DNA from: Candidatus Hydrogenedentota bacterium
GTDB taxonomy: Bacteria; Hydrogenedentota; Hydrogenedentia; Hydrogenedentales; JAEUWI01
Assembly (NCBI GenBank): GCA_016791475.1
Contig: JAEUWI010000070.1
Location: 1 to 32,757 of the forward strand
DNA: 32,757 nucleotides
Direction: 5' to 3'
The first letter of the stretch is position 1. The number at the start of each line of letters is the position of its first letter. A program made the position numbers and the translations under genes. Shown piece by piece: positions 18,420-18,605 of the stretch. Under the pieces are notes generated by a model, which worked only from the letters and a program-made list of their open reading frames with translations, did no database searches and was not told the DNA's origin.

Positions 18420-18605
18420 CAAAGGGGCTTAGGCATTCCTGCCTGAGACAGAACCTACCGAGGCATGGAAAGGTATTGCGAACGTGTCGGACAGCCTGAG
18501 ATACCAGCGTCGTGTTTTCGAATAGCTAGGGATCAGTACACATCTTCGAGTCATTCGAATGGCGACGTAATCTTTGTCTCAGACAGGAATGTCTAAGCTC
18601 CTTTA
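18420..18605. repeat. REP-like inverted repeat pair enclosing a further inverted repeat
   Basis: The 34 bases at 18420-18453 match the reverse complement of 18572-18605 at 28 positions. Each copy is itself a hairpin: an 8-bp stem including one G-T pair around TTCC in the first copy (stem core AGGCA / TGCCT) and in the inverted copy (AGACA / TGTCT, same TTCC loop). Two of the differences between the copies therefore preserve pairing. Inside, CGTCG...TTCGAAT (18508-18512, 18517-18523) is complementary to ATTCGAA...CGACG (18553-18559, 18563-18567). The whole could fold as one long hairpin, or be a small non-autonomous mobile element of the REPIN or MITE kind. Confidence 0.65.

Follow-up and report, generated by a model that had tools for sequence, protein, structure and literature searches.

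Results

An inverted hairpin pair between the PSD1 and DUF1501 genes

The window, by which we mean the whole 32,757-nt stretch of Candidatus Hydrogenedentota DNA analysed here, carries a pair of inverted hairpin arms at 18420-18605. Upstream lies a gene for a PSCyt1-PSCyt2-PSD1 protein (13065-16370, plus strand; identified by Pfam and by synteny in the relatives G001, G003 and G005), followed in the same interval by a gene for a Sel1-repeat protein (16438-17319, plus strand; Pfam). The downstream neighbour is a DUF1501 gene (18792-20291, plus strand; Pfam and a codon-usage gene call), with its start codon about 185 bp from the end of the hairpin pair. The initial annotation had placed the hairpins in a gap that separates the normally adjacent PSD1 and DUF1501 genes. 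Adjacency is indeed seen in G005, where the two reading frames are 4 bp apart, but the gap in the window is not empty, as the Sel1-repeat gene lies inside it. In G003 and G001, whose DUF1501 proteins are orthologues with 87-88% identity, other reading frames fill the interval. Thus each lineage has filled this interval in its own way, with other frames in two relatives and a 4-bp gap in the third. A scan with the family model described below found no arm in the orthologous PSD1-DUF1501 intervals of G001, G003 and G005; since the intergenic sequences fail to align, an exact empty site cannot be delineated.

Other repeats were observed in and around this locus. Short word repeats, CATTCGTGTACATTCGTGTTCATTCGTGG and TTCGTAATTCATAATTCG, occur near the hairpin pair at 18119-18148 and 18719-18746, and the orthologous interval of G003 contains a match to the segment 18108-18150. 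Elsewhere in the window, a 30-nt inverted repeat of the TTTCACCACGAAG... type (2492-2521 and 2700-2729; 87% complementary, 178 nt apart) is unrelated to the family studied here. On the reverse complement of contig C529 of G003, the beginning of the DUF1501 gene occurs twice (2880-2976 and 5432-6917), once on each side of inserted reading frames, which looks like the entry of a cassette accompanied by partial duplication.

The left arm (18420-18453) is a 34-nt unit that reads TTCTGTCTCAGGCAGGAATGCCTAAGCCCCTTTG on the minus strand and scores 50.9 bits with the family model R1. The right arm (18572-18605, plus strand) reads CTTTGTCTCAGACAGGAATGTCTAAGCTCCTTTA and scores 52.0 bits. The two inverted 34-base copies had been described as matching at 28 positions, and same-sense alignment gave the same figure (28/34); a repeat finder reported 33-nt arms at 18418-18450 and 18575-18607, 88% complementary and 124 nt apart. 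Each arm contains one hairpin of eight pair positions and a 4-base loop: CTTAGGCA-TTCC-TGCCTGAG on the left (18428-18447, plus strand) and CTCAGACA-GGAA-TGTCTAAG on the right (18578-18597, plus strand). Direct reading also confirmed that a G-C pair in one stem is an A-T pair in the other, with G18433-C18442 in the left arm corresponding to A18583-T18592 in the right, so that pairing is kept. The tetranucleotide GGGG (18424-18427, plus strand) lies directly 5' of the left hairpin, where classical REPs have their GT[A/G]G guide, and GGAG (18598-18601, minus-strand reading) lies 5' of the right hairpin. Between the arms is a spacer of 118 nt (18454-18571), a length typical of the family, with a sequence that is not clearly common to other copies.

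The arms belong to a dispersed intergenic family

A BLAST-type search of the host genome (G000; 7.7 Mb in 529 contigs) with the 231-bp region returned many further arms. The core motif, with up to two mismatches, matched 38 times in this genome compared to once for a reversed-pattern control; these counts, together with arm scores of 51-52 bits, show that the window arms are not chance occurrences. A covariance model of the arm family, built from 42 arms, detected 55 host arms at E<=0.01. Divergent pairs, 21 in all, account for 42 of the 55, convergent pairs are absent, and in 14 of the 21 divergent pairs the arm starts are 152-158 bp apart. Such inverted REPs at a short, characteristic distance are the arrangement expected of REPINs, as are repetition within the genome and extragenic location. 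All 16 host REPINs checked (15 others and the window copy) were intergenic, with no overlap with the codon-usage gene calls. The copies are neighbours of many different genes and occur in all orientations, and 9 of the 15 others have called genes within about 160 bp on both sides. There are about 20 such REPINs in the host genome. Insertion in frame within genes had been suggested by stop-free frames, present in 11 of 13 REPINs compared to 37% of shuffles of the whole element, in which the conserved arms are lost, and was rejected on the basis of the codon-usage gene calls. Phage records gave no match.

A different arrangement was seen on host contig C47 (about 21542-22077), where four to five same-strand REP arms stand in tandem with a 95-bp spacing, preceded by one arm in the opposite direction. 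This run looks like BIME-type amplification.

Classical REPs carry a GTAG or GTGG tag 0-2 nt 5' of the hairpin. In the 42 arms this tetranucleotide was GGAT (17 arms), GGGG (16), GGAG (6) or GGGA (3); all 42 therefore fit GG[A/G]N and none fits GT[A/G]G. As the strict GT[A/G]G tag is lacking, the window element was not filed as a GTAG REP. Other RAYT-linked repeats in the host genome (contigs C9 and C50) do carry GTGG.

Compensatory changes maintain the stem

Selection on structure had been proposed from the single base-pair change in the window, with covariance modelling as a check, and the family as a whole bears this out: compensatory changes that keep the pairing, a further REPIN hallmark, extend across it, and five of the eight stem pairs have changed on both sides among the 42 arms. 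Since these arms are related and were partly picked by pairing, which favours structure, the pairing statistics overstate the strength of the effect: 88.7% of cells were paired compared to 74.9% in shuffles, and 46 double-change cells were observed compared to 11.8 in shuffles and 0-2 with slid partners. The number of double-change pairs and the number of pair types were not clearly above shuffles (61/500 and 164/500, respectively). However, several different stems are seen even when only the arms found by BLAST are considered. Counted from the stem foot, the third pair is G-C in 12 of the 42 arms; in the other 30 it is G-T when read on the TTCC strand, and so A-C on the opposite strand.

Spacers are conserved in length and not in sequence

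The spacer measures 118-124 nt in 14 of 16 host REPINs (range 106-133). One further, longer copy, on host contig C21 at about 39.6 kb, seems to hold an extra inverted repeat. Homology of spacers across the family was considered and rejected: of the 595 spacer pairs given by 35 REPINs from five genomes, only 16 aligned well (score of 40 or more), and these were essentially sister copies. The best score for the window spacer was 26 (with copy C23b), compared to a shuffle maximum of 21, giving it no clear relative. Although the window arms fit the family consensus well, the window REPIN is probably an old copy, as its spacer matches no sister copy clearly.

The initial annotation had also described a second, nested inverted repeat between the arms. 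Such a repeat can be drawn inside the window spacer, but it is not a feature of the family, and as a conserved structural part it was rejected: it is absent from other copies, and spacers fold no better than dinucleotide shuffles (z = -0.38 for the window spacer; mean z of -0.19 +/- 0.19 for 26 spacers). Bertels and co-workers have described REPIN spacers as highly diverse, with length as the critical feature (PMC3116915; PMC8049555). The length-conserved, sequence-free spacers found here are in line with known REPINs, though extreme.

Whole units are shared between loci and among relatives

We searched 40 genomes, the host included, with the family model (E<=0.01). Arms were most numerous in G001 and G002 (at least 150 each), followed by G003 (73), the host (55) and G005 (54), with three each in the more distant G007 and G039. 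The other 33 of the 40 genomes had no arms, and most of the order is without the family. Same-genus relatives of the host hold 73, at least 150 and at least 150 arms. The hairpin core, which it had been proposed to count across the genome and in relatives, is thus multicopy in the host (38 core matches, 55 arms) and common to its relatives.

Four copies in G002 have the whole element in common, including the spacer, and occur in both orientations. G002 contigs C60, C194, C377 and C660 hold a REPIN subtype with spacers of about 131-148 nt, in which the shared sequence reaches outer inverted ends, TAAGCGTTCAC...GTGAACGCTTA; the mobile unit of this subtype may therefore be larger than the REP pair. 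In the host, copies C6a and C6b have arms and spacer in common and flanks that differ. Sharing of whole units, at the four G002 loci and between C6a and C6b, therefore supports copying of the entire unit. As signs of mobilisation by a RAYT, the dispersed whole units in G002 and the absence of arms from the orthologous intervals of relatives are indirect only.

RAYT genes flanked by the family

The host genome contains 12 genes that resemble NF047646, the model for REP-associated tyrosine transposases, of which three score above the curated cut-off, and 14 Y1_Tnp matches. RAYTs on contigs C9, C50, C6, C17 and C36 have their own hairpin repeats on both sides. On C9 (about 120.3-122.4 kb) a RAYT gene stands amid numerous copies of two other hairpin repeats, GTGGGTTAGGCG... 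and CGTGGGCTTGATCG..., in a dense REPtron-like locus.

The RAYT on host contig C89 is flanked by two REPINs of the window architecture, with a stem variant (GTCGACCA/TGGTCAAC) that differs from the window's. Its product matches PF01797 above the cut-off and NF047646 with E=3.8e-19 (69 bits, under the 80-bit cut-off). Its sole PDB match is 4er8, the TnpA-REP of E. coli (E=0.00055), and the HUH motif and tyrosine region are present. It thus combines the Y1_Tnp HUH domain and the REP_Tyr_transpos similarity by which RAYT/TnpA-REP proteins are recognised. In relatives, the RAYT on C452 of G002 lies between two REPINs whose stem is CTCGGACA/TGTCCAAG, the one on C279 of G003 has REPINs on both sides, and the one on C59 of G005 has family arms downstream only, the contig starting upstream. 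Hence the RAYT-type transposase that the initial annotation suggested looking for was found in four genomes, flanked by copies of this family, an association that is itself expected of REPINs. None of the RAYTs examined in G001, with its 150 or more arms, was flanked by family arms.

The window's exact stem class, CTC[A/G]G[A/G]CA, was not found beside any RAYT in the host assembly. The nearest stem class beside a RAYT is found in relatives only (CTCGGACA/TGTCCAAG), one or two compensatory steps away. As the host genome is a fragmented assembly, a RAYT with the window's stem class may be missing from it, or may have been lost. In a tree of 22 RAYTs the genes on C452, C279 and C59 join with support of 100/97, and C89 joins this group with 81/70, so that the four arm-flanked RAYTs appear to form one clade, with modest support. 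Within the host, the best candidate enzyme for the window REPIN would be the RAYT on C89, or else an orthologue of the C452 RAYT of G002 that has been lost or is missing from the assembly.

Discussion

The feature at 18420-18605 is very probably a REPIN: two inverted REP hairpins and a 118-nt spacer, forming a non-autonomous mobile element copied by a RAYT in trans. A REPIN/BIME element was one of two readings offered at the outset, and it is supported by the multicopy arms, their presence in relatives, the compensatory changes, and the RAYTs flanked by family arms. The anatomy of the window element also agrees with that of published REPINs (PMC3116915, PMC8049555).

How would such an element move? 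Whenever the locus becomes single-stranded, as in replication, each arm would fold into a short stem with a 4-base loop beside GG[A/G]N. A RAYT (TnpA-REP, an HUH/Y1 single-strand transposase) would recognise the folded arm, cleave at the REPIN ends and move the single-stranded unit. The TnpA-REP of E. coli binds REP in single-stranded form, requires both an imperfect stem and the tetranucleotide GTAG, and cuts at dinucleotides close by (PMC8266576). By analogy, the RAYT of this family would read the shape of the arm, its imperfect stem and the GG[A/G]N tag; recognition of shape as well as letters would explain the compensatory changes in the stem. Recognition and insertion by the family RAYT are likewise inferred by analogy, and we expect its cleavage and strand transfer to follow the biochemistry of the E. 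coli and Stenotrophomonas TnpA-REP enzymes.

It is possible, if doubtful, that the spacer is selected for its length alone. RAYTs might then either restore or convert, in situ, the REP ends of copies already resident, or gauge a fixed distance along the single strand, and their guide would be GG[A/G]N rather than GT[A/G]G.

Could the arms instead be kept by the host for a cellular role, such as transcription termination, mRNA protection or the binding of gyrase or a nucleoid protein, their mobility being historical only? The good conservation of arms whose spacers have diverged beyond recognition would fit such a role, as would the closeness of 9 of the 15 other host REPINs to genes on both sides. 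Nevertheless, we consider it unlikely, because copy number jumps within the genus (from 55 and 73 to at least 150 in two genomes) and falls to zero in most of the order, a pattern that fits mobile DNA, and because G002 contains dispersed, near-identical whole units. Very unlikely, in our judgement, is a MITE of an ordinary transposon, with a transposase that recognises double-stranded terminal inverted repeats. The element does have terminal inverted repeats and a roughly fixed size, and one G002 subtype has longer outer inverted ends; yet the arms are hairpins with compensatory changes, which a duplex-DNA transposase would not need, and RAYT genes are flanked by them. Least likely of all is a structured non-coding RNA or riboswitch-like leader of the DUF1501 gene, its pairing kept for RNA function, since the long hairpin predicted for the region (z=-4.74, plus strand), the position upstream of a gene and the GGAA loop, a stable RNA tetraloop, are outweighed by copies beside many different genes in all orientations, spacers without common structure or sequence, orthologous DUF1501 loci that lack the element, and an Rfam search that gave no match above the gathering threshold in the gap and one chance hit elsewhere, leaving the structured RNA of the initial annotation without Rfam support.

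The REPIN reading places a known kind of element in a little-studied phylum, Candidatus Hydrogenedentota, and it is apparently only in this occurrence that it is new; the individual window element is ordinary. The literature searched contained no paper naming RAYTs in Candidatus Hydrogenedentota, to which REPIN-RAYT systems are here extended. One genome harbours several lineages of RAYT, each of which has flanking repeats of its own, and this allows the specificity of enzyme for repeat to be compared between close relatives. Clear tests of RAYT recognition are offered by the GG[A/G]N tag and by spacers whose length is fixed while their sequence is free.

Among known systems, the REPINs of Pseudomonas fluorescens SBW25 (GI-GIII; PMC3116915) are similar in their inverted REP doublet with fixed inter-REP spacing, a spacer conserved in length but poorly in sequence, common compensatory changes, intergenic location and link to a RAYT class. 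They differ in spacing (71 and 110 bp, compared to about 152-158 bp between arm starts here), in tag (GG[A/G]N here), in copy number, which is far lower in our host, and in phylum. The E. coli REP/BIME system with TnpA-REP (PMC8266576; PDB 4er8) shares an imperfect stem position, a tetranucleotide 5' of the hairpin, and an HUH/Y1 enzyme whose gene is flanked by REPs (a REPtron). Here, in contrast, the tag is GG[A/G]N rather than GTAG, the stem is shorter, and most arms have, as their imperfect position, one G-T wobble when the REP strand is read (A-C on its complement) rather than a two-base bulge. In the part consulted of the account of GTAG- and CGTC-tagged REP superfamilies (PMC3733652), these too consist of small hairpins that carry unpaired tag bases at one end, form divergent dimers and number several families per genome, with members known from Planctomycetes and Verrucomicrobia; the tag found here is neither of theirs, and Candidatus Hydrogenedentota is absent from the phyla listed in that part. 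Lastly, class 3 repeats carry CnGA, unlike this family, but TnpA-REP subclass 2.6 and class 3 (PMC6006769) both comprise RAYT-like genes whose flanking hairpins are without the GT[A/G]G consensus, as in the family described here.
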